Positions 1 through 13,213 of a stretch of DNA of 13,213 nt are shown in pieces. A model generated the notes under the pieces. It was given only the letters and a program-made list of their open reading frames with translations, had not been told where the DNA came from and searched no databases. How positions within the stretch are numbered: the first letter of the stretch is position 1; each line of letters starts with the position of its first letter. The stretch is from Desulfobacterales bacterium (GTDB lineage: Bacteria; Desulfobacterota; Desulfobacteria; Desulfobacterales; Desulfobacteraceae). The position numbers and the translations under genes were made by a program. The stretch spans positions 1 through 13,213 of the forward strand of contig JAKSAU010001049.1 in assembly GCA_022361535.1 (NCBI GenBank), in the 5' to 3' direction.

Positions 1-714
1 GTCAAAGGTGCTTTTACCGGAGCCATCAACGACAAGGTCGGCCGATTTGAAATGTGCAACAAAGGAAGCATCTTCTTGGATGAAATCGGAGAGATTTCTC
101 CTGTGCTCCAGCTAAAATTGCTCGGTGTCATTCAGGACCGGGAATTTGAACGGGTGGGAGACAGCCGTCCCGTCAAGGTGGACACCCGGATTATTGCAGC
201 TACCAATCGGCTTTTGAAAGAAGAGGTTCAAAACGGTAATTTCCGGGAAGATCTTTATTACCGGCTCAACGTGGTAGAAATCAAAATGCCTCCCCTGCGG
301 GAACGCCATGGTGATATCCCGTTGCTGATTGACCACTTTTTGAACCAGTTTAGAAAAAAATACAATAAACCAATTCAGGCGGTATCCACTGAAATTGTGA
401 AGATATTTACTGCCTATCCCTGGCCAGGAAATGTAAGAGAGTTGGAACATGCCATTGAACATGGGTTTGTCCTTTGTACAGAAGATGTGATAGACACAGC
501 TCATATCCCTTCTGAAATCATTCGATTCAATCACCCCGGCGGAGTACAGGCCTCAGATAATGGTACAAAGACAGAGTCAGAAGAGAAGCAGGAGTTGGTT
601 TCCATCTTAGAAAAGACAGACTGGAATAAGGCCAAGGCTGCTCGTCTTTTAGGGGTCAGCCGTCCCACCCTTTACCGAAAACTTGAGAAATTCGGTCTTG
701 AAAAAGAGGTATGA
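1..714 (+). CDS. Sigma-54-dependent transcriptional activator, C-terminal part (5' end outside window)
   Basis: The reading frame is open from base 1, so the gene starts upstream of the window; 237 residues are visible. In this fragment the sigma-54 contact loop GAFTGA is at residues 3-8, Walker B (GSIFLDE) at about 22-28, the IIAATNR sensor I stretch near 63-69, [10 protein letters not shown] with the arginine-finger region after it, and WPGNVREL in the lid. A Fis-type helix-turn-helix closes the protein (about 195-237, with [16 protein letters not shown]). These are the second half of an NtrC-family AAA+ domain plus a DNA-binding domain. The protein would hydrolyse ATP to remodel the closed complex of sigma-54 RNA polymerase. 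Its signal-sensing N-terminus is missing, so the inducer cannot be judged. It points at the TRAP operon 378 bp downstream and may be its activator (inference). No clear terminator follows its TGA stop. Confidence 0.95.
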
Positions 715-1092: not shown

Positions 1093-2088
1093 ATGAAGAG
1101 AATTGCTAAAATTATGATGGTAGTAGCAGCACTGGCTATGGTAGCAGCAACAGCTCATGCAGGCAAAGTAACGATGCGGGTAGGTGACATTGAAAATGTA
1201 AACAACCTGGGTGCAATCGCCTTGGACAAGTTTGCCGACCAGATTAAAAAAGACAGCAATGGTGAAATCAAAGTTAAAGCCTTTCATGCATCACAGATGG
1301 GCAGTGCAAACAAACAGCTCCAGCTTGTAAAATCAGGTACCCTGCAGTCATTCCGCGGCTCTATTTCCTGGCTGGCACAGTTTGACACAGGTTTCTCCCT
1401 GCTGGACTTCCCATTTACCCTGGGTTCTGCCCAAGAAGCTAAAATCGTTGCTACATCCAGCGCCCTTGATAAACTCAACGACAAACTGGCTGAAAAGCAC
1501 GGTATCCGCTATGTAACTGCCGGCTGGACCCGTCTTCCCCGCCAGATCCTGGTTAACAAACCCATCTCAGACATTGGTGAACTCAAAAGCGTAAAACTTC
1601 GTGTTCCTGAAGTATATGCTTACATTGAATCCTTCAAATCCATCGGTACCTCTCCCACACCGGTTGCTTTCGGCGAAACTTACCTGGCTCTGAAACAGGG
1701 TGTTGTAGAAGGTGCTGAAAACCATGTTGAATCCCTTTACAACATGAAATGGTTTGAGGTTGCCAAGCACCTTGTGATTACTGACCACTCCTATGACATC
1801 ACCGGTTTCATCGTGAATGATGAGTGGTGGAAAGGCCTGACCGACGGCCAGAGAAAACTCATCGTCGATACGTTCAACAAAGTTGACGAATGGTTTGTTA
1901 AAGAAAACGAAAGCCTGCAGAAAAAATACATCGACCTGATGGCTAAAGAAGGTGGTGTTAAGGTTCATACAGTTGATAAAGCCAGCTTTATCAGCAAAGT
2001 TGTTCCCAGCGCCATGATAGCTGCTGAAGAAGCTGGCGAATGGGATAAAGGTCTTTGGAACGAAATCCAGGAACTTTTGAAGAAGTAA
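1093..2088 (+). CDS. dctP: TRAP transporter periplasmic solute-binding protein (DctP family)
   Basis: This 331-residue protein has the usual length of a DctP-family extracytoplasmic receptor. It starts with a clear Sec signal peptide: MKR, a hydrophobic run to about residue 20, and a likely cleavage after AHA at residue 23. It binds the substrate in the periplasm and delivers it to the DctQ/DctM membrane unit. The KLRVPE segment carries Arg170, at the place where TRAP binding proteins usually have the arginine that salt-bridges a substrate carboxylate. The later GVVEGAENHVES segment (about 203-214) is also typical of the family. This suggests a carboxylated ligand (inference), which fits a betaine-like compound but also ordinary C4-dicarboxylates, 2-oxoacids or sulfonates. 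Start ATG 1093 is supported by GAGGAGG at 1076-1082. It is the first gene of the dctPQM set; a strong hairpin follows the stop codon. Confidence 0.95.
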   Translation: MKRIAKIMMVVAALAMVAATAHAGKVTMRVGDIENVNNLGAIALDKFADQIKKDSNGEIKVKAFHASQMGSANKQLQLVKSGTLQSFRGSISWLAQFDTGFSLLDFPFTLGSAQEAKIVATSSALDKLNDKLAEKHGIRYVTAGWTRLPRQILVNKPISDIGELKSVKLRVPEVYAYIESFKSIGTSPTPVAFGETYLALKQGVVEGAENHVESLYNMKWFEVAKHLVITDHSYDITGFIVNDEWWKGLTDGQRKLIVDTFNKVDEWFVKENESLQKKYIDLMAKEGGVKVHTVDKASFISKVVPSAMIAAEEAGEWDKGLWNEIQELLKK

Positions 2089-2121
2089 GATACCGCAACT
2101 TTTAAAAGCGGTTAAAAACAA

Positions 2122-2159
2122 GGCCAGGGTTCCTTTGGGCAAACACGGGAGCCCTGGCT
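2122..2159 (+). promoter_or_regulatory. Intercistronic stem-loop between dctP and dctQ
   Basis: GCCAGGG (2123-2129) pairs perfectly with CCCTGGC (2152-2158). The stem extends through wobble and Watson-Crick pairs to about 13 bp (2122-2134 with 2147-2159), with a 12-nt loop. No T-run follows, so it is not a standard intrinsic terminator. Such hairpins after binding-protein genes often protect the upstream message and allow more binding protein than membrane subunits; that role is inferred from position. Confidence 0.7.
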
Positions 2160-2200
2160 GATCCACCTTTTGAAACACCTATCAAACAAATGAGAGAATC

Positions 2201-2662
2201 ATGAAAAATATACTCGAACGAATGAGTAAGGGGTATATTGCGGCCTTGCTTGTGTCCTTTGCTGTCATAATCATTTGTGTTGTCCTTCAGATTGTGACCC
2301 GTTACGTTTTAAACCAACCATTGACCTGGACAGAAGAGGTTTCCTTATTTGCATTTTGCTGGTTTACCTTCCTGGGTGCGGCCGCCTGTTCCTGGGAAGA
2401 CTCCCACCTGGCGGTGGATTTCTTTTATAATAAGATGGGGAAAAAAGTTAAGAAAATTGCTGACATCTGCATTATGCTCCTGGTCCTTGTGATGTGTGGG
2501 TTCATGATTGTTGATGCTGTAATTGCCATGAAAGAACAGATTGGCATCTCATCGGTGGCGTTAAGAATTCCGATTCCGGCCTATACTGCTGCCATCTTCA
2601 TCGGGTTTGTTGCCATGGCCCTGTTTACCATTTACCACCTGATTAGACGGATCAGGAACTGA
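2201..2662 (+). CDS. dctQ: TRAP transporter small membrane subunit (DctQ family)
   Basis: This 153-residue protein matches the small-subunit family in size and topology, with four hydrophobic segments at roughly residues 12-34, 47-65, 86-108 and 124-147. It carries the typical RYVLNQPLTWTEEVSLFAFCW region after the first helix, including the TEE motif seen in DctQ proteins. It sits in the inner membrane with DctM and helps form the binding-protein docking surface of this sodium-driven secondary transporter. The start at 2201 has a weak GAGAG sequence just upstream (2192-2196). The gene lies 112 bp after dctP and 67 bp before dctM, on the same strand. Confidence 0.93.
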   Translation: MKNILERMSKGYIAALLVSFAVIIICVVLQIVTRYVLNQPLTWTEEVSLFAFCWFTFLGAAACSWEDSHLAVDFFYNKMGKKVKKIADICIMLLVLVMCGFMIVDAVIAMKEQIGISSVALRIPIPAYTAAIFIGFVAMALFTIYHLIRRIRN

Positions 2663-2729
2663 TAATGACTTCAACGTGTACAATTCCGACGGTACGGGTG
2701 TGCACTAAACTATATGTAAGGAATATCTG

Positions 2730-4013
2730 ATGGGAAGCGTTCTTTTCTTATTGGTTTTTGTAGTGTTAATGATTCTAAAGGTACCTGTTGCCTTTAGCCT
2801 GGGGTTTTCCTGCCTGTTTTATTTTGTGACCAATGGAGTTCCCTTAGAAACAGTCCCCACAATCATGCTCGGCACCTTTGAATCCTTTACCCTTCTTGCC
2901 ATTCCCTTGTTCATGCTGGCAGGCCAGATTATGAATATGGGCGGGGTAACGGAACGGCTTTTTGACTTTTGTAAAAAACTTGTGGGGCATATCCCTGGAG
3001 GCCTGGGCCACGTGAATATCGTTTCATCCCTTATTTTTGCAGGGATGTCCGGCTCAGCTACTGCTGATGCAGCAGGGCTTGGCACAATTGAGATCAATTA
3101 CATGAAAAAGGAAGGGTATGACCCAGCCTTTGCAGCGGCAGTTACGGCTGCATCCTCAACCGTAGGTACCATCATGCCGCCGTCTTTAGGGTTTGTTATT
3201 TTCGGTGCCATGACCGGAACATCGATTGCCGGCCTTTTTATTGCCGGTATTGGTCCTGCCATCTTAATGACCATTGCCCAGATGGTCATCGTCTATTTTG
3301 AGGCAAGAAAACGTAATTTTAAAGTTTACCCCCGTGCAACCCTGGTCATGATCCTTTTGGCCTTTTGCAAGTCCTTTTTGCCTATGCTGACTCCCATCAT
3401 CATTCTCGCTGGGATCATGACCGGGTTTGCTACTCCCACCGAAGCGGCAGTACTTTCCATCATTTACGCGGTGTTCTTGGGAATGATTATTTATAAGGAA
3501 CTGGACTTTAAGGGACTGATCCAGACCATGATCAATGTGGGCAAAGGCACCGCCAAGATCATGTTGATTGTCTCTTTTGCCTCTGTTTTCGGATGGATTC
3601 TCACCTATGAAGGCATTCCTGCCATGCTCACAGAGCTTTTGATGGGTATCAGCGAAAGCAAATACGTTATCCTGATGATTCTTAACGTTTTCATCCTGGT
3701 CCTGGGCTGTTTCATGGAAAGTATTTCTGTTATGATGATCGTTGTGCCGGTTCTCATCCCACTGCTGAACACATTGGGAATTGAGCTGATGCACTTCGGT
3801 GTTATACTGGAACTGAACCTTAACATCGGCCTGATCACACCACCACTGGGTGTATGTGCCTACGTAACAGCAGATATTGCAGAAGTCTCTTTTGAAGAGG
3901 TCATGAAGGCAATCTGGCCGTTCCTTGGGGTATTGATTTTTGTATTGATGATTATTACCTATTTTCCGGCTGCCCCGCTGTTCTTACCCCGTTTGTTCGG
4001 ATTCTTGCCTTAA
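2730..4013 (+). CDS. dctM: TRAP transporter large permease subunit (DctM family)
   Basis: This 427-residue, very hydrophobic protein has the length and repeated-helix pattern of the DctM permease (ion transporter superfamily), with about 11-12 membrane segments. Recognisable family stretches are PLFMLAGQIMNMGG near residue 60, the SGSATADAAGLGTIEI region near 107-122, SSTVGTIMPPSLGFVIFGAMTGTSIAGLFIAGIGPA near 142-176, and NLNIGLITPPLGVCAYV near 360-376. It forms the substrate and sodium pathway and uses the sodium gradient rather than ATP. ATG 2730 is preceded by AAGGA at about 2718-2722. The stop is 9 bp before the next start, so it is co-transcribed with the flavoprotein gene. Confidence 0.96.
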   Translation: MGSVLFLLVFVVLMILKVPVAFSLGFSCLFYFVTNGVPLETVPTIMLGTFESFTLLAIPLFMLAGQIMNMGGVTERLFDFCKKLVGHIPGGLGHVNIVSSLIFAGMSGSATADAAGLGTIEINYMKKEGYDPAFAAAVTAASSTVGTIMPPSLGFVIFGAMTGTSIAGLFIAGIGPAILMTIAQMVIVYFEARKRNFKVYPRATLVMILLAFCKSFLPMLTPIIILAGIMTGFATPTEAAVLSIIYAVFLGMIIYKELDFKGLIQTMINVGKGTAKIMLIVSFASVFGWILTYEGIPAMLTELLMGISESKYVILMILNVFILVLGCFMESISVMMIVVPVLIPLLNTLGIELMHFGVILELNLNIGLITPPLGVCAYVTADIAEVSFEEVMKAIWPFLGVLIFVLMIITYFPAAPLFLPRLFGFLP

Positions 4014-4022
4014 GGAGAAAAC

Positions 4023-5384
4023 ATGTCAGTTATAATAGAAAAAGAGAGACAAACCCCTGTATTGGATGAAGCAGATGTATTGGTTGTGGGCAGCGGCCCC
4101 GGCGGCTTATCAGCAGCCATTGCGGCAGCAAGAGCAGGAGTTAAAACCATATTGATTGAGCGCTACGGCTGCTTTGGCGGCAACATGACTGTTGTGGGCG
4201 TTGAATCACTTGCCTGGTACCGTCACGAAAAAACCATTGACTCTGAGGGTATCGGGATCGAGTTTGAAAACCGTGCCATGGAAATGGGTGCCACGGCCAA
4301 AGAAGTCCAGTCTGACAGCCAGGCCCTGAATACGGAATTGTTCAAGCATGTGGCCGACACCCTGGTCACAGAAGCAGGTGTTATTCCGCTGTTGCACTGC
4401 TACGGGGTAGAGCCCATTGTTGAAGGGGACACCATCAAAGGTGTGGTTACCGAAAGTAAATCCGGCCGTCTTGCCGTTCTGGGCAAAGTAGTGATTGATG
4501 CCACAGGGGATGCTGATATTGCCTTTAGGGCAGGTGCTCCCTGCACAATGGAACCGGTTCCCGAACGCCAAGCCGTCACGTTAGCCTTCAACTGCTGCGG
4601 TGTAAACAAAGACCGGTTCATGGAATACATCAAAGAGGACCCTGCCACATACGGAGATTGGGGAGAAGATTGGGCCCAACAGACATCAGGTCTTGAGAAC
4701 GACATGTTCAGCCCCTATTTTCAAAAACAGTTCGACCAAGCCATAGAAAAAAACATCATCCCTAAAAGTGACTGGGATTTATGCGGGTCATGGTCCACTA
4801 TTACAGATGACGGACAGGCCACCTATATGAACCTGGTGCACTTAGGCAAGGTGGATATTACTGATGTCAGGGATCTGACCCGTGCAGAAATGGACGGCCG
4901 CAGACAAGTTCTGGATGCTATCAAGGCCATGAACCACACCATCCCTGGATTTGAAAAGGCCAGGTTGAGAAATTATGCCATGACTATAGGGACAAGGGAT
5001 TCAAGAAAAATCCAGGGTGAATACGAATTAACCGGCCATGATGTCCTCAATGAAGCAAGATTTGAAGATTCCATCGGTGTTTTCCCCGAGTTTGTTGACG
5101 GGTTTGGGGTGCTTCGCCTGCCTGTAACAGGCCGCTATTTCCAGGTACCTTACAGAAGTATCCTGCCTAAGAGAATAGAAAGCCTGCTTGTGGCAGGCCG
5201 TTCTATTGCAGGGGACCAGATTTCCCATGCTGCCACCCGGAACATGATGTGCTGTGCGGTTTCCGGGCAAGGTGCGGGTGTTGCAGCAGCTGTGGCTGCC
5301 AAATCAGGCAAACCGTGCAGACAGGTACCGGTAAAGGATATACAAAACGTACTGGCCGAACAGAATGTCCGCTGCCACTATTAA
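4023..5384 (+). CDS. FAD-dependent oxidoreductase (FAD_oxidored-type flavoprotein)
   Basis: This 453-residue protein has an N-terminal Rossmann nucleotide-binding motif VVGSGPGGLSAAIAAARAG (GxGxxG at 23-28) with Glu46 at the end of the second strand, followed by GCFGGN (49-54). A second FAD-contact stretch VIDATGDADIA lies at about 157-167. A GTRDSRKIQGEY segment is at about 323-334, and the C-terminal FAD motif LLVAGRSIAGD is at 388-398. These fit the FAD_oxidored family (PF12831-like). No iron-sulfur cluster motif or transmembrane segment is evident, so it is probably a soluble flavoenzyme whose electron acceptor is unknown. The strong ribosome site AAGGAG ends 4 bp before ATG 4023, and dctM ends 9 bp upstream, so it is part of the transporter operon. 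It probably oxidises the imported compound or an intermediate (inference); the substrate cannot be read from sequence. Confidence 0.85.
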   Translation: MSVIIEKERQTPVLDEADVLVVGSGPGGLSAAIAAARAGVKTILIERYGCFGGNMTVVGVESLAWYRHEKTIDSEGIGIEFENRAMEMGATAKEVQSDSQALNTELFKHVADTLVTEAGVIPLLHCYGVEPIVEGDTIKGVVTESKSGRLAVLGKVVIDATGDADIAFRAGAPCTMEPVPERQAVTLAFNCCGVNKDRFMEYIKEDPATYGDWGEDWAQQTSGLENDMFSPYFQKQFDQAIEKNIIPKSDWDLCGSWSTITDDGQATYMNLVHLGKVDITDVRDLTRAEMDGRRQVLDAIKAMNHTIPGFEKARLRNYAMTIGTRDSRKIQGEYELTGHDVLNEARFEDSIGVFPEFVDGFGVLRLPVTGRYFQVPYRSILPKRIESLLVAGRSIAGDQISHAATRNMMCCAVSGQGAGVAAAVAAKSGKPCRQVPVKDIQNVLAEQNVRCHY

Positions 5385-5457
5385 TAAAGAAACGTAAAAA
5401 TTATTCTCCTTTAAAAAGTCATCAGGTGTGTGTAGGGTAAATAGGTTTGCCCAGAAT

Positions 5458-5472
5458 GTTCCAACTGGGAAC
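5458..5472. promoter_or_regulatory. Possible operator upstream of the GntR-family gene
   Basis: GTTCC-AACTG-GGAAC is a 5-bp inverted repeat with a 5-bp spacer, 26 bp before the repressor start codon. An overlapping CCCAG/CTGGG pair (5451-5469) adds symmetry. Position fits autoregulation by the downstream GntR protein, but the sequence does not match the usual FadR-type pattern TNGTNNNACNA, so confidence is low. Confidence 0.25.
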
Positions 5473-5498
5473 CATACGCATAGATGACAGGAGCTCTT

Positions 5499-6209
5499 AT
5501 GAGCATCAAAATACAAAAAATAACTGCTACCGAAGCCCTTGTTGAAAACCTTAAGGAACGAATCACCAGCTGTGAGTTCGGCCCTGGTGAAAAGTTACCC
5601 AGTGAGCAGTCTTTGCTGAAAGAGTACAATGTCAGCCGACTGACTTTAAGGGATGCCTTGGCCCGACTGGCGGCCGTGGGAGTAATCCGGGTCCAGCATG
5701 GTAAAGGCGCGTTTGTAAATGCCAAAGTGAGTGTCCCTGCGCTTGAAAATGTTCTGATTCCCATGTTTGTCCAGCAAAACAGGACCAGAATGAAGGAACT
5801 CATAGAAGCCCGGAACCTTATTGAGTCTGAAATTGCTGCAAACGTGGCACTTGGAAGGACAGACAAAGAAATCAAGCATCTTGAAAAACTGCTTAAATAT
5901 GATGAATCAACCATAACAAGTGCTGACATCTTTGCTGACAGGGACTATGCATTTCATCTGGCACTCTCGGAAATTTCAAGGAACGAGTTTTATCACTCCA
6001 TGTACCAGGCCCTGTACCGCCAGATTCGCTTCTTTTTGATTCAATATGCCAAGAGCATTTCAGATTGGAAAGAAGCCCTGGACAGGCACCGTCCTATACT
6101 TGAGGCCATTATAGAACAAGACGAGCAACGGGCACGCAGCCTGGCAAGAGAACATGCCGGTATCTGTGCCTCATTTATTCAGCAATATTCCATAGAGAAT
6201 GATGCCTGA
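5499..6209 (+). CDS. GntR-family transcriptional regulator, FadR subfamily (FCD domain)
   Basis: The N-terminus is a winged helix (about residues 8-75) with the GntR signature PGEKLPSEQSLLKEYNVSRLTLRDALARLAAVGVI and the wing GKGAF. The C-terminal FCD ligand-binding domain (about 90-230) has the metal-site residues of this family: Asp149 and His153 in DRDYAFHLAL, His197 in RHRPILEAI and His219 in REHAG. FCD proteins usually bind a small carboxylic acid and leave the DNA when it binds. I chose ATG 5499 over the in-frame ATG at 5484 because AGGAG (5489-5493) sits 5 bp upstream of 5499 and lies inside the reading frame of the longer version. The product is 236 residues. It lies between the flavoprotein and aminotransferase genes on the same strand and is probably the substrate-responsive repressor of this catabolic cluster (inference). 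Confidence 0.93.
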   Translation: MSIKIQKITATEALVENLKERITSCEFGPGEKLPSEQSLLKEYNVSRLTLRDALARLAAVGVIRVQHGKGAFVNAKVSVPALENVLIPMFVQQNRTRMKELIEARNLIESEIAANVALGRTDKEIKHLEKLLKYDESTITSADIFADRDYAFHLALSEISRNEFYHSMYQALYRQIRFFLIQYAKSISDWKEALDRHRPILEAIIEQDEQRARSLAREHAGICASFIQQYSIENDA

Positions 6210-6260
6210 TCAATCTAATAAATAAAAATAGTTAAGACCAAACGAATAAGAAGGTAAACA

Positions 6261-7370
6261 ATGGAAAACATCTTAAACTCAATTGAAGAAATCACCCTGA
6301 TGGGCCCAGGGCCCTCTTGTGTAGATCCATCTGTTCTGGATGCCATGAGCAAAAGTACCCTTGGCCATCTTGATCCCTCATTCATCAAGATTATGGATGC
6401 CATAAAAGAACAGATGCAGGGTCTTTTACACACAGAAAACAAACTCACCATTCCTGTTTCTGGAACTGGTTCTGCAGGCATGGAAACCGCTTTTGTCAAC
6501 CTGGTGGAAAAAGGTGACCCGGTCCTTATCCTTATCAACGGGGTATTTGGTACCAGAATGCAGGATGTCGCAACCCGTCTTGGTGGCAACGTAGATACCC
6601 TTGAATTTGAATGGGGCACCCCTGTCCTTGTTGAAGATGTCAAAGCCGCCCTTGGTGAAAAATCCTATAAGCTAGTTGCTGTTGTTCACGCTGAAACATC
6701 AACTGGTGTTGAAAACCCCGTGTCTGAAATCGGTGCCTTGCTCAAAGGAACAGATACCATTTTCCTTGTAGATGCCGTAACCAGTTTTTGCGGTATGGAA
6801 ATCCAAATGGATGAGTGGGGTATTGATGCCCTGTACAGCGGTACCCAAAAATGTTTGTCCTGTCCTCCAGGCCTGGCGCCCCTCTCCTTTTCAGACAAAG
6901 CGGTTGAAAAACTGAAGAACCGTACGGACAAAGTACCCAACTGGTACCTGGACTTGACCATGATCATCAACTATTGGGAAGGTGCGACACGAGCTTACCA
7001 TCATACCGCCCCCATCAATATGCTTTACGGACTGTACCAGGCACTTTATCTGGTTCATGAAGAAGGGGAAGCTGCAGTTTACAAACGTCATATGGATGCC
7101 CATCAGCAACTGATCCAGGGTCTTAAAGAACTCGATATTCAGATGCTTGTGGATGAATCCTGCCGTCTTCCCATGCTCAACTCCATTGTTATTCCGCAAG
7201 GGGCTGACGATGCTGGTGTCCGTGGAAAGCTTTTGAAAGATTATAAGATTGAAATCGGCGCAGGCTTAGGTCCTCTTGCCGGTAAAATCTGGAGAATCGG
7301 CCTGATGGGCCATACAGCAAGACCTGAAAATGTCGAAAAGCTCCTTGCTGCACTAAAAACCGTATTGTAG
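6261..7370 (+). CDS. Class V PLP-dependent aminotransferase (alanine/serine-glyoxylate type)
   Basis: This 369-residue protein has the full fold-type I class V pattern: GPGPS near the N-terminus (15-19), the PLP-phosphate loop SGTGSAGME (67-75), HAETSTGV (143-150), the Asp-containing DAVTSFCGME (Asp171), SGTQKCL with the PLP lysine Lys197, RAYHHTAP (244-251) and the carboxylate-binding arginine in WRIGLMG (Arg345). These are hallmarks of the alanine-glyoxylate/serine-pyruvate aminotransferase group, which also includes ureidoglycine-glyoxylate enzymes, so the exact amino donor is open. It could remove the amino group left after demethylation or oxidation of the imported amine (inference). The ribosome site AAGAAGG is at 6248-6253. 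The stop is TAG (7368-7370), notable in a window with a likely pyrrolysine TAG. A very strong terminator follows. Confidence 0.92.
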   Translation: MENILNSIEEITLMGPGPSCVDPSVLDAMSKSTLGHLDPSFIKIMDAIKEQMQGLLHTENKLTIPVSGTGSAGMETAFVNLVEKGDPVLILINGVFGTRMQDVATRLGGNVDTLEFEWGTPVLVEDVKAALGEKSYKLVAVVHAETSTGVENPVSEIGALLKGTDTIFLVDAVTSFCGMEIQMDEWGIDALYSGTQKCLSCPPGLAPLSFSDKAVEKLKNRTDKVPNWYLDLTMIINYWEGATRAYHHTAPINMLYGLYQALYLVHEEGEAAVYKRHMDAHQQLIQGLKELDIQMLVDESCRLPMLNSIVIPQGADDAGVRGKLLKDYKIEIGAGLGPLAGKIWRIGLMGHTARPENVEKLLAALKTVL

Positions 7371-7710: not shown

Positions 7711-7727
7711 GTGTAAACCCGTTACAC
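7711..7727. promoter_or_regulatory. Palindromic operator candidate GTGTAA-N5-TTACAC
   Basis: GTGTAAACCCGTTACAC is a perfect 6-bp inverted repeat with a 5-bp spacer, the shape of a dimeric activator or repressor site. It is about 130-145 bp upstream of the putative sigma-54 promoter at 7856, a normal distance for an enhancer-type upstream activating sequence. The binding protein is unknown; one of the two nearby sigma-54 activators is a candidate. Confidence 0.45.
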
Positions 7728-7751
7728 CTATGCCCCTTACACATCTGCCAC
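7722..7751. repeat. Two tandem 15-bp direct repeats
   Basis: TTACACCTATGCCCC (7722-7736) is followed at once by TTACACATCTGCCAC (7737-7751), matching at 12 of 15 positions. The first copy shares its TTACAC with the right arm of the palindrome at 7711-7727, so three half-sites are arrayed on the DNA. This looks like a multi-site binding region for a regulator. Confidence 0.45.
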
Positions 7752-7855: not shown

Positions 7856-7871
7856 TGGCATGATTCTTGAT
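7856..7871 (+). promoter_or_regulatory. Possible sigma-54 promoter for the methyltransferase genes
   Basis: TGGCATGATTCTTGAT matches TGGCAC-N5-TTGCA in the -24 part (one change) and in the TTG of the -12 part, with correct spacing. The -12 GC reads GA. The same change occurs in the element at 12897-12912, which makes it more credible. The start site would be near 7882, about 60 bp before the ATG at 7944. Confidence 0.4.
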
Positions 7872-7943: not shown

Positions 7944-9380
7944 ATGAGTATTGCAACACATTTCAGACTGGTGGATAAAAACAAACTCGAACAGCTTCAC
8001 GATGCTACACTGGATATTCTTGCCGAAACCGGTATTGTATTCCAATCCGATGAATGCCTTGAAATCTTTAAGCAGCACGGCGCTAAAATAGACGGTCAGA
8101 CTGTATTCATCCCAAAGGATATGGTTAACAAAGCCATTGAACACGCGCCATCCGAATTTCGGTGGGAAGCCAGAAACACGGACCGCTCCATCACCTTGGG
8201 TGCTGCCCAGGAAGGGATCCATGTCAGCCACAATAACGGTCCCATTTATATCCAGGATCTGGATGAAGGCCGCCGACTCGGTACCATGACAGACTTGATC
8301 AATCTTTATAAACTGGCCCAGAAGTCCGATACCTGCTCTATTGTAGGCCAAATCCCGGTTGAACCCGCTGATATTACCCACCCTTTGCGCTACCTGGATA
8401 TTTTCCGCCAGTTGCTCAAACATTCTGACAAACCCTTGTTTGGATATGTGGGCAATACCAAGGAAGTTGGGCAGATGTTTGATATGGTCCGCATTTCTTT
8501 GGGTGCAGAACTTGGCGATGACTCTGTGTTCGATCAACACCGCATTTCAGTATCACTGAACCCATTGAGCCCGCTCCAGTTTGACGAGATACCCTGTGAG
8601 ACGCTCCTGACCTATGCTAAACTGCGCCAGCCGGTCATGGTGCTGACCTGTGCCATGGCAGGAGTTACAAGCCCTGTTGATCCTTTAGGGACCGTGGTAC
8701 TTCAAAATGCAGAAATTTTGGCGGGACTCACCCTTGCCCAACTGGTTAACCCGGGAACGCCTGTGGTGTATTCACCGGCATCTGCCATTCCAAATATGCG
8801 GACGGCATCCTATATTACCGGCTCTCCCATTTCCAACTTTATCAACATGGTCGGCATCCAGCTTGCCAGGGAACTGTACAATATACCTTCCCGGTGTATG
8901 GCTGGCTTAACCGATGCCAAAGCACCGGACTGCCAGGCAGGCTATGAAACCATGCAGACCTACCTGATGCTTGCCATGGCAGGTGTTAACATGGTCAACG
9001 AATGTTACGGCGTCCTGGACGCCATCATGACGGTATCCTATGAAAAATTCATTATCGATGATGAAATTATGTCCAGAGCAGCCTGTGTCATGAAGGGTAT
9101 CGACACCATGGAGCCGGATTTTTCTAAATCCATTATCCAAGAAATCGGCCACGGCGGATCATATCTTATGCACCCGTCCACAATGAAACACTGCCGCGGT
9201 TTCTGGACACCCGGTATCTCCACCATGGACTCTTACGAAACTTGGGAGAAAAAGGGCAGCATGGATGTAACCCGTGCGGCCAATGCAAAATTTAAGGAAA
9301 TCCTTGCAGCATGTCCTGACCAGATCATTGATCCGGAAATAGATACGCTGCTTGCAGGATATATTGAGGCTGCCAAATAA
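7944..9380 (+). CDS. MttB-family (trimethylamine methyltransferase-like) corrinoid methyltransferase without pyrrolysine
   Basis: This 478-residue protein is homologous over its length to the next gene and to the trimethylamine methyltransferase (MttB) family, which folds as a TIM barrel and transfers a methyl group from a quaternary or tertiary amine to a cobalamin-bearing partner protein. Shared features include ATLDILAETGIVF near residue 21, the ISVSLNPLSPLQF region (201-213), DPLGTVVLQNAEILAG (246-261) and AGLTDAKAPDCQAGYE (320-335). In the last segment Leu322 aligns with the pyrrolysine of the neighbouring protein, so it belongs to the non-pyrrolysine branch. Characterised members of that branch include glycine betaine methyltransferase MtgB; others act on related betaines. 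Substrate here is unassigned. The ribosome site is weak (GGGGA, 7931-7935). It follows a long regulatory gap and precedes the pyrrolysine gene by 129 bp. Confidence 0.9.
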   Translation: MSIATHFRLVDKNKLEQLHDATLDILAETGIVFQSDECLEIFKQHGAKIDGQTVFIPKDMVNKAIEHAPSEFRWEARNTDRSITLGAAQEGIHVSHNNGPIYIQDLDEGRRLGTMTDLINLYKLAQKSDTCSIVGQIPVEPADITHPLRYLDIFRQLLKHSDKPLFGYVGNTKEVGQMFDMVRISLGAELGDDSVFDQHRISVSLNPLSPLQFDEIPCETLLTYAKLRQPVMVLTCAMAGVTSPVDPLGTVVLQNAEILAGLTLAQLVNPGTPVVYSPASAIPNMRTASYITGSPISNFINMVGIQLARELYNIPSRCMAGLTDAKAPDCQAGYETMQTYLMLAMAGVNMVNECYGVLDAIMTVSYEKFIIDDEIMSRAACVMKGIDTMEPDFSKSIIQEIGHGGSYLMHPSTMKHCRGFWTPGISTMDSYETWEKKGSMDVTRAANAKFKEILAACPDQIIDPEIDTLLAGYIEAAK

Positions 9381-9476: not shown

Positions 9477-9509
9477 CGTAAATTTTAACACGAATTAGGA
9501 GGTTTAGTT

Positions 9510-10997
9510 GTGAAACGCAACCAGCATGCAGGTTTCCTGCAGAGCGGGGGATTGAGCCTCAACATGTTTACCCAGGATGAACTCTATGAGATCCACCTGG
9601 CCACCCTGGATGTGCTGCAGCACACCGGCATCTGGTTTGAAGATGAGGAGGCCAGACAGATCTTAGGCGACAACGGTGCAGACGTTGATCCTGTCACACA
9701 TGTGGTAAAATTCCCACCCTACATGGTCGAAGATGCTATTCGTTCGGCCCCGGCAACGGTTAACCTTGCCGGCAGGGATCCTAAGCACGATTACCTTCTG
9801 GGCAACAACCGGGTCGGCTTTACCAATTTTGGTGAAGGCATATCCATCGTGGATATCGAAACCGGGGTCCTGAGGGAAACCGTGAAAAGAGACGTAGAAG
9901 AAAGTGCAGTCCTTGTAGATTACCTGGACGGTATTGATGTCTACGAACGGGCAGTGGGCGCCCATGATGTTAACCAGGATGCCCAGCCCCTGCACAATGC
10001 AGAGGCATTCTTGTCCAACACCACAAAACATTGCTTCCACGGTGCCGGTAACGGCATGTTGATGAAGGCCGCCATTGACATGGCAGCCGCCATCCAGGGG
10101 GGGCATGACAAATTCAGGGAAAGACCCATTATTTCCTTTAACACCTGCCCCATCAGCCCCCTAAAGCTGGTCCGCGACTGCACCGAGATTATCATTGAAG
10201 GTGCAAAAGCAGGTGCCCTGGTTAATGTTCTGACCCAGGCTTTGGCAGGAGGGTCCGCTCCTGTCACACCAGCAGGAACGCTGGTAGTTCACAATGCCGA
10301 AGTATTATCCGGTATTGTCCTGGGCCAATGTGTGCGAAAAGGCACACCCATGATGTTTGGCAGCTCCACCTGCCCACTTGACCTGCGTATGGCAACAGCT
10401 ACGGTTGGATCACCGGAATGCGGCATGATTAATGCCGGCGTTGCGGCCCTGTCCACCTACTATATGCTGCCTTCGTGGGTTGCAGGCGGATAGGCTGACT
10501 CAAAAGTACCCGACGGACAAGCTGCTCATGAGAAAACACTCACAGGTCTCTTAACAGCGTTGGCAGGTGCCAACCTGATCTACGGCCTGGGAATGTTGGA
10601 ATCAGGGGTCACTTTTGACTACGGTCAGCTCGTCATGGATAATGAATTTGCCCAGATGATCAAACATGTTGTAAACGGTATTCCTGTAAATGAAAATACC
10701 CTTGCAGTGGATATAATTGGAAAGGTAGGATCCCAAGGCCAGTTTATCACTGAAAAACACACGTTTGAACATATGAAACAGATGTCACAGCCTTCTCTCA
10801 TTGACCGCAGGGTTCGGGATAAGTGGGAGAGCGCCGGCGGCCAGACCATGCATGAAAAAGCCATGGACAAAGCCCGTGATATCCTTGCAAACCATAAACC
10901 CACACCCCTTCCCGATGAGGTCAGGTCCAAGATGAGATCCATCGTGGAAGAGTGTGAAGCGCAGATAGCCGAAGATAAAGAACGGGACGGCAAATAA
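9510..10997 (+). CDS. mttB: Trimethylamine methyltransferase MttB, pyrrolysine-containing (in-frame amber read through)
   Basis: The gene starts at GTG 9510 with AGGAGG at 9497-9502. The frame runs 327 codons to TAG (10491-10493), then continues without a shift for 167 more codons to TAA at 10995-10997. Read through, it gives a 495-residue protein with pyrrolysine at position 328, close to the length and pyrrolysine position (about 334) of Methanosarcina MttB. Sequence on both sides belongs to the same family: PSWVAGG before the codon, ADSKVPDGQAAHEKTLTGLL and GANLIYGLGMLESG after it. MttB moves a methyl group of trimethylamine to the corrinoid protein MttC; pyrrolysine is thought to bind and orient the amine. 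Bacterial members may use other methylated amines. The corrinoid partner and pylTSBCD genes are not in the window. It is probably co-transcribed with the preceding paralogue and ends at the terminator at 11037. Confidence 0.93.
10491..10493 (+). other. In-frame amber codon decoded as pyrrolysine
   Basis: TAG lies at codon 328 of mttB, at the position where MttB enzymes carry pyrrolysine. Conserved family sequence continues in the same frame immediately after it, and there is no ribosome site or fresh start before the downstream part. An ordinary stop would remove the last third of the barrel. Decoding needs tRNA-Pyl and PylS from elsewhere in the genome. Confidence 0.92.
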
Positions 10998-11135: not shown

Positions 11136-12764
11136 TCAATTTGCAGGCTTTTTGATTTTCATCTTTTTCATTCTGGAAGAAAGTGTAGTTGGATTGATCC
11201 CAAGTAGCTGTGCTGCGCCGTCATCACCGTAAATCTTCCAATTTGCCTTTTCCAGGGCATTGATGATGTTTTGCCGTTCCATCTGCTTCATCTCGGACTC
11301 GGGTATCACTTCCTGGTCATCAGTCAAGCCTATATGGGTAACAACTTTTTTGTCTGAATCACTTTCAGCAATCTCCTCATACAAATCAAAATGAAGAATG
11401 CTGCCTTGTGTCAAAATGGCGGCCCGTTCGATAACGTTCTGCAGTTCACGCACATTACCCGGCCATTCATAATTTTGAAGCTGCCTGATATTCGAGACTG
11501 ATAATCCAGGAAGCTTTCGGTTGCTCTTTTTATGGATCATTCTTAAGAAATGCTCTGCCAACAAAGGGATGTCGACCTTGCGGGACTTTAAAGGTACCAC
11601 TTCAATGGGGAAAACATTGAGACGGTAATACAAGTCCTGCCGGAACCTCCCTTTTGACACCTCTTTTTTAAGATTCCGGTTGGTTGCTGCAATAATACGC
11701 ACATCAACCTGGCGTGTGATTTCCTCGCCAACCCTTTCATACTGCCCTTCCTGCAGAACACGCAAAAGTTTACTTTGCAGATCAAGAGGAATTTCACCCA
11801 CCTCATCCAGAAAAAGAGTGCCGCCGTCAGCCGCTTCAAACCGCCCGGCCCGGTCTTTTATGGCGCCGCTAAATGCCCCTTTGACATGGCCGAAAAACTC
11901 ACTTTCGGATAATTCCCTGCTGATGGAAGCACAGTTCACTTTTATCAAAGGCCGGTCTTTTCTCAGGCTTCGCCGGTGAATTTCGCGGGCAACCAGTTCT
12001 TTTCCAGTGCCGCTTTCTCCAAAGATTATGACACCGGCATCGGTGGGAGCAACCAGGTCGATTTGTTTAATAAGATTATTTATGGCATCGCTTTCACCGA
12101 CTATATCGCCGAAAGCACGCGCATCATTTACCTCTTGCTGCAAATATGAACACTCCAATTTCAACTGGGCCTGCAGTCCTTGAATTGCCTCAAATGCCTG
12201 GGCGTTGACAATGGCAGTGGCAGCATGGTTGGCTATCATCCTAAGCCAGACCAGTTCTTCGTGTTTGAGCTGAATCCGTGTAAAGATGACCAAAACGCCT
12301 AATACTTCTCCCTTGTAGAGCAGGGGCTGACCGCCAAACCCTATAATTTTTTCTTTACTTGCCCACTCAGGCCTGGCAATCCACGTGTCGTCTTTTCCCA
12401 CATCCTGCACTTCTACAGCTTTGCCGTTGGCAGCAATCCATCCCACTTTACGGGACCCGATAGGAAAACGGCTGAAATCGCCATTAAGGCGGGACCAGTC
12501 TACTTCTCCTTTGAATAGGGAACTGCCCGCACTGGCCATTAAATGAAGGCATCTTTTATGTTCACCACAGGTTGGCTCATAGGCCGGACAGGGACAATCA
12601 CCATCCTTTATCAGCCATAAACGGGCCAAGGCAACATGGGGACGATCAGCAAGACGACGTACGATCAGGTCCAACAGTGGAGCTACGGCATGCTCTCTGG
12701 CCATCTCCAAAAGAAGCGTTTTTAGGGACTCATATTCCGGTTCGTAACTGGGATCAAATTTCAT
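11136..12764 (-). CDS. Sigma-54-dependent activator with N-terminal GAF domain and cysteine cluster
   Basis: This 542-residue protein has an N-terminal GAF-like sensor (about 10-195), a short coiled linker, an AAA+ sigma-54 interaction domain (about 218-450) and a C-terminal Fis-type helix-turn-helix (about 492-538). Walker A is GESGTGKE (249-256), Walker B GGTLFLDE (314-321), and WPGNVREL lies at 434-441. The sigma-54 contact loop reads GAFSGA (296-301) instead of the usual GAFTGA. In the GAF region Cys57, Cys59, Cys66 and Cys72 form a compact cluster before CLHLMASAG, which could bind a metal or iron-sulfur cluster or sense redox state (inference). There is no receiver domain, so it probably senses a small ligand directly. 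It converges on mttB and diverges from the isochorismatase-family gene at 12990. The start ATG at 12764 has no good ribosome site. Confidence 0.95.
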
Positions 12765-12989: not shown

Positions 12990-13213
12990 ATGTCTGATCA
13001 AACACACAAACAAAATCCAGCCTATGCAGAACCTGAAGAAAAAACCCTGCCGGAAAGCAACATGAAGCTGGACCCGAAAAGATCTGCACTGGTAGTCGTC
13101 GACCCGCAAAATGATTTTCTTGACGAAAAAGGCGTCGCATGGGGAGTTGTTGGAAAATCCGTAAATGAACATAAGGTCGTACAACACCTTGAAGACCTTT
13201 TTAAGGCTGCCAA
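12990..13213 (+). CDS. Isochorismatase-family (cysteine hydrolase) protein, N-terminal part
   Basis: The frame is open to the window edge; 74 residues are visible. ATG 12990 has a strong ribosome site AAGGAG at 12978-12983. After a polar N-terminal extension of about 31 residues comes SALVVVDPQNDFLDEKG, the first strand of the isochorismatase-like fold with the catalytic aspartate in VVDPQNDF. Family members hydrolyse C-N or ether bonds in small molecules (N-carbamoylsarcosine amidase, nicotinamidase, isochorismatase). The catalytic lysine and cysteine are beyond the window, so hydrolase activity cannot be confirmed. Context suggests induction by the divergent sigma-54 activator. A role as an amidase acting on an N-methylated compound would fit the neighbourhood but is speculation. 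Confidence 0.85.
   Translation, partial: MSDQTHKQNPAYAEPEEKTLPESNMKLDPKRSALVVVDPQNDFLDEKGVAWGVVGKSVNEHKVVQHLEDLFKAA

Follow-up and report, generated by a model that had tools for sequence, protein, structure and literature searches.

The window analysed here is a 13,213 nt stretch of DNA containing an mttB gene with an in-frame TAG codon. Related loci, numbered L001 onwards, are described below. The features of the window are as follows.

1–714, plus strand: C-terminal part of a sigma-54 activator (Pfam), cut by the window edge
1093–7370, plus strand: block of dctP, dctQ, dctM, FAD oxidoreductase, GntR regulator and class V aminotransferase genes, between the regulator and mttB2
7712–7726, plus strand: dyad TGTAA-N5-TTACA (TGTAAACCCGTTACA), a predicted activator site; TTACAC at 7737 is a further half-site
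7856–7870, plus strand: predicted sigma-54 promoter TGGCATG-N4-TTGA, 5' of mttB2
7944–9380, plus strand: mttB2, MttB superfamily without pyrrolysine, MtgB-like (TIGR02369 317.7 bits, below the cut-off of 525)
9497–9502, plus strand: Shine-Dalgarno sequence AGGAGG, 7 nt 5' of the mttB GTG
9510–10997, plus strand: mttB, pyrrolysine type, predicted trimethylamine:corrinoid methyltransferase (495 codons, GTG start, TAA stop)
10491–10493, plus strand: in-frame TAG, residue 328, predicted pyrrolysine, aligned to Pyl334 (X) of PDB entry 7xcl
10491–10590, plus strand: match to Rfam PYLIS_3 (RF02510), 83.4 bits against a gathering score of 38
11136–12764, minus strand: convergent GAF/sigma-54 activator; in L001 and L002 this place is taken by a BCCT transporter, followed by pyl genes

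A preliminary description of this DNA proposed that one MttB protein was hidden as two open reading frames. This is borne out: positions 9510–10997 form a single frame of 495 codons, and the TAG at codon 328 is its sole interruption. Standard gene calling had been expected to yield a 327-residue protein and a 145-residue fragment; exactly these pieces were returned by our ORF caller, the fragment having a TTG start (10560–10997). The tail after the TAG comprises 167 open codons, a length reached once in 20,000 mononucleotide shuffles; 10 and 16 stops interrupt its two alternative frames.

The read-through protein matches TIGR02369, the equivalog model for trimethylamine methyltransferase, with 735.2 bits (cut-off 525), and PF06253 with 294 bits. 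Alignments to PDB entries 7xcm and 7xcl (416 and 414 bits) span residues 2–483. Both entries are the MttB of Methanosarcina barkeri, which is described with pyrrolysine as residue 334 and residue numbers up to 495 (PMC9842639). For marine Deltaproteobacteria, the MttB described has pyrrolysine at 327 of 485 (Kivenson et al. 2021, PMC8318568). Hence, the match in residue number and length to known pyrrolysine MttB proteins, part of the original argument, is close but not exact. Residues Gly110 and Tyr364 are reported to be fully conserved in pyrrolysine-containing MttB (PMC9842639). Both are kept here, as Gly108 and Tyr358 in the alignment to 7xcl. The M. barkeri and window proteins are thus alike in sequence family, pyrrolysine position and these two residues. 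They differ in that M. barkeri is an archaeal methanogen, in which the methyl group passes on to coenzyme M, and in that its Thr111 corresponds to Glu109 of the window protein.

The in-frame stop could also mean that a nonsense mutation, pseudogene formation or a sequencing error has split an ordinary MttB, and the window proteins scanned included no pyl gene. We examined other genomes for the same codon. A genome scan with the window MttB gave nine loci holding a relative (L001–L009). TAG occupies residue 328 in 9 of the 9 copies from L001–L008 that share at least 57% identity and cover the site; L009 falls outside this count, as the locus ends before residue 328. Two cultured relatives, Desulforhopalus singaporensis and Desulfocicer vacuolatum, have this TAG-containing gene. 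The same was true at L030–L059 (30 of 30), which represent one locus per genome, best copy, from 30 family genomes with a TAG-containing mttB. Throughout L030–L066 the sole TAG away from the site belongs to a His-type paralog in L066, at residue 490. Comparison of the window mttB with L001–L004 gave dN/dS values of 0.08–0.14 after the TAG and 0.04–0.05 before it, figures that are rough because dS is near saturation. The part after the TAG is under weaker constraint than the preceding part, yet clearly under purifying selection. A split gene or an error is difficult to reconcile with the recurrence of one TAG at one residue in many other genomes, with selection after it and with a frame lacking any further internal stop. 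We consider this explanation ruled out by the conserved TAG and the selection, and give it a negligible probability.

Three apparent selenocysteine or ochre variants were rejected. The TGA of a paralog in genome G001 aligns with residue 489 and is by all appearance the gene end. A supposed TAA variant, in a G026 paralog, has no internal stop in its aligned part. A G076 copy with both TGA and TAG has the TAG at 328, divides between two frames at about residue 390 and looks frameshifted. Separately, a diverged MttB in L064 (1938–3356; genome G082), 40% identical and only uncertainly placed in our tree because of its long branch, has TAG at the same residue. One of the two TAG copies in L006 has Ser in the Gly110 column.

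A frame that runs on through TAG would equally be produced if the codon specified an ordinary amino acid, through some other suppressor tRNA or genome-wide recoding. However, TAG is also the stop codon of the window aminotransferase gene, at 7370, and hence still works as a stop in the window; 63 of 119 listed aminotransferase relatives have the same length of 369 aa. Furthermore, the aminotransferase gene ends in TAA in 4 of 6 relatives checked, and the occurrence of TAG-containing mttB tracks that of PylS (see below). Decoding as an ordinary amino acid is, on these grounds, extremely improbable. The L002 mttB frame carries TAG at codon 328 (10982), and the stop that follows, at codon 498 (11492), is TAG as well. 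Thus, TAG seems to serve as residue and as gene end in one gene.

No tRNA was detected by ARAGORN in the 13,213 nt of the window, and there were no pyl genes among the window proteins scanned against families. We also searched the eight related genomes reached via L001–L008 (L005 and L009 share an assembly). PylS was above cut-off in seven of the eight (not G008), compared with 1 of 14 control genomes. For PylD the counts were the same, the exception being G007. Locus L001, from a Desulfobacula sp. MAG, has the order kinase, response regulator, mttB2 and TAG-containing mttB. On the opposite strand after mttB are genes for a BCCT transporter, pylSc, pylD, pylC and pylB; beyond pylB are genes for a methyl-THF:corrinoid methyltransferase and a corrinoid protein, then pylSn and tRNA-Pyl. 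The L001 PylSc, PylD, PylC, PylB and PylSn each score above their cut-offs. The core order is the same in L002, where PylS, PylD and PylB were recognised by family match and PylC by eye. None of the curated cut-offs shown is reached by the corrinoid protein of L001 or by that of L002. In L003, PylS and mttB are on different contigs; in L004 both are on one contig, approximately 79 kb apart. ARAGORN identified tRNA-Pyl in 3 of 14 loci scanned (L001, L002 and L004), many of the 14 being short pieces. Two tRNA-Pyl genes are present in the single pyl locus of L002 (17103–17175 and 19929–20001).

Co-occurrence was measured in 86 genomes of the family around G005, counting TAG-containing mttB among the matches listed. 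Both this gene and PylS were present in 25 genomes, TAG-containing mttB only in 5, PylS only in 3 and neither in 53 (Fisher p 1e-13, a value that overstates independence because the genomes are related). In total, TAG-containing mttB was among the matches listed for 30 genomes. A PylS match was found in 28, of which 27 were above cut-off and one, in G056, was a fragment. The five genomes with TAG-containing mttB and no PylS match (G026, G044, G047, G059 and G078) are perhaps incomplete. PylS without TAG-containing mttB among the matches listed occurred in G040, G056 and G067.

Homology, a TAG at one exact residue, purifying selection and pyl genes in the nearest genomes support the reading of the gene as a pyrrolysine-containing mttB. 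Very probably, the window comes from a Desulfobacteraceae-like sulfate reducer and encodes a single full-length trimethylamine methyltransferase with pyrrolysine, acting as follows. A tRNA-Pyl charged by a split PylSn/PylSc would read UAG at mttB codon 328. The pyrroline ring of MttB would bind trimethylamine, and the methyl group would be handed to a corrinoid protein, from there to tetrahydrofolate and on into the reverse Wood-Ljungdahl pathway. In the window, mttB forms a pair with mttB2, which lacks pyrrolysine, and a sigma-54-dependent two-component activator probably switches on the pair. Decoding in this organism, the substrate, the methyl route and regulation are steps that we infer; what the sequences show is the homology, the frame, conservation of the TAG, selection, pyl genes in relatives and recurrent promoter and dyad motifs.

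The best PDB matches of mttB2 are the glycine betaine methyltransferase (MtgB) entries 2qne and 9yce (312.9 bits), its closest solved relatives, which, unlike the window mttB product, have no pyrrolysine. At the pyrrolysine site mttB2 has Leu. MttB members without pyrrolysine are well known as quaternary-amine methyltransferases (PMC12155760), and mttB2 probably encodes such an enzyme. With this MtgB-like gene adjoining, a BCCT transporter near in L001 and L002, and several diverged TAG-containing mttB copies in some genomes (e.g. G003 and G007), the product of mttB could contain pyrrolysine and have a main substrate other than trimethylamine. Against this, the window MttB is far above the trimethylamine equivalog cut-off and retains the active-site Tyr and Gly. 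We regard another main substrate as unlikely, but as deserving some weight, and favour trimethylamine.

The Rfam PYLIS_3 model coincides with the TAG of mttB. However, the model also scores above its gathering score on paralogs without pyrrolysine (41.3, 39.1, 58.7 and 59.9 bits). These matches of 39–60 bits are at window positions 8907–9006, L002 9316–9416, L006 11988–12087 and L007 12626–12725. Since it matches even paralogs whose site residue is His or Leu, PYLIS_3 was rejected as proof of pyrrolysine. Hence, the model responds to coding sequence that the paralogs share and not to pyrrolysine use, a warning against treating it as evidence for pyrrolysine.

The 6.3 kb TRAP/FAD/GntR/aminotransferase block is absent from the corresponding place in L001–L004. 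It is probably a separate catabolic module, and the assembly may be chimaeric at this point. Among 13 fetched stretches around aminotransferase relatives, an FAD relative was present in 6, a GntR relative in 6 and both in 5; none of the 13 contained a TAG-type mttB. In G065, G066, G068 and G071 the aminotransferase is approximately 6.3 kb from a 31% identical MttB relative. The convergent activator at 11136–12764 has relatives of 78% (G064) and 77% (G030) identity. At the far end, positions 12990–13211 hold the start of a cut-off gene that had no family match and is cysteine hydrolase-like by eye.

Upstream of mttB2 are the predicted sigma-54 promoter and dyad. A first sigma-54 scan, demanding GC at −12, gave no match in the window. 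The relaxed motif was derived by inspection and alignment of upstream regions and is hence post hoc. The sequences TGGCATGNNNNTTG and TGTAANNNNGTTACA each occur once in the window, where 0.09 and 0.01 occurrences are expected, the motifs having been chosen after seeing these sequences. We compared six loci: the window, L001, L002, L003, L004 and L009. In all six, the 420 nt upstream of mttB2 (or, in L004, of mttB) contain both GGCATG-N4-TTG and a TGTAA-N3 to N5-TTACA dyad. Mononucleotide shuffles gave an expectation of 0.01–0.1 dyads per locus. The distance from dyad to promoter is 134–173 bases in five loci and 301 in L003. A second dyad was found in L003, at 2394, and a search for one in L004 found none. 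L001 and L002, both loci with a pyl operon beside mttB, each have one further dyad upstream of tRNA-Pyl (L001 15087–15100; L002 20131–20144). These dyads are 113 (L001) and 108 (L002) bases before −24/−12-like elements, GGCATAAATATTG and GGCACGGATATTG respectively, which end close before tRNA-Pyl. Similar elements precede the BCCT gene (L001 8707; L002 13497). Scans of the window for other signals gave 9 terminator sites (13.7 in shuffles) and 20 sigma-70 sites (18.3 in shuffles), and neither set is relied on.

An orthologue of the 1–714 regulator, 69–83% identical, lies directly before mttB2 in L001–L003 and before mttB in L004; L009 has none. In L001 and L002 the orthologue is full-length and combines a receiver domain, a sigma-54 domain and a Fis-type HTH; that of L002 adjoins a Cache/PAS histidine kinase. 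We infer that this pair of kinase and response regulator controls the dyad and promoter sites. Tentatively, and with slightly more doubt than belief, we suggest that pyrrolysine use forms one sigma-54 regulon. A dedicated kinase and activator, working at TGTAA-N3 to N5-TTACA sites and −24/−12 promoters, would turn on mttB2-mttB, BCCT and the tRNA-Pyl/pyl operon together. In the window lineage the TRAP/FAD/aminotransferase module would lie between activator and target, with pyl genes not next door. The further dyads and −24/−12-like elements before tRNA-Pyl in L001 and L002 make this suggestion likelier. They also render co-induction of pyrrolysine use and its client enzyme testable.

Pyrrolysine-containing MttB of marine sulfate reducers is already known from the genes and loci described by Kivenson et al. 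(2021, PMC8318568). Their account includes expression of such an mttB across the pyrrolysine site in two sediment metatranscriptomes, and raises possible competition of marine sulfate reducers with methanogens for trimethylamine. The loci of Deltaproteobacteria-bbl and relatives, as described there, resemble the window in having a pyrrolysine mttB, a putative glycine betaine methyltransferase without pyrrolysine and a regulator in the same locus. In that description, the loci are related to Desulfobacula, and pyl genes, a corrinoid protein gene and a metH-like methyltransferase gene are near by. Unlike the window, they are described with a lysine/arginine/ornithine-binding protein and ectoine-type transporters as neighbours. 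The window, unlike those loci as described, has the TRAP/FAD/GntR/aminotransferase block, and its 13 kb yielded no pyl gene. In our literature search, with most subscription journals outside its range, only Kivenson et al. joined pyrrolysine with Desulfobacula, and no paper was found that brought together mttB, sigma-54 and pyrrolysine. What we add is the predicted sigma-54 promoter and upstream dyad before mttB2-mttB (6 of 6 loci) and before tRNA-Pyl (L001 and L002). We also add the block between regulator and mttB2, and the PYLIS_3 matches on paralogs without pyrrolysine.

Database relatives of MttB were collected at E ≤ 1e-20, keeping proteins of at least 0.55 of the query length, and the best 120 of 2776 were examined. 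In this set, 78 are no longer than 400 aa and 42 are longer. In all 78 short relatives the last residues are [ST]W[VAT]AGG, immediately preceding the TAG site, and 73 of them are exactly 327 aa. Hence, the truncated annotation foreseen in the preliminary description does occur in databases. Trimethylamine use by marine sulfate reducers is easily under-reported, because the enzyme is mostly a 327-residue stump among these best 120 of 2776 relatives. Among the 42 longer relatives the site residue is Trp in 12, Leu in 10, His in 6 and various or gapped in the other 14. In full-length relatives P0020–P0113 (>400 aa; 46–57% identity), the pyrrolysine site is occupied by Trp, Leu, His or another residue. 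A quick tree of 90 rows places the window MttB in a 5-row clade containing only pyrrolysine types (SH-aLRT 100). The 34 pyrrolysine rows need three changes, two of them forced by starred branches, in a tree where several long branches meet. A 9-row Leu/Val clade (support 92) lies inside a starred set with 33 pyrrolysine rows.
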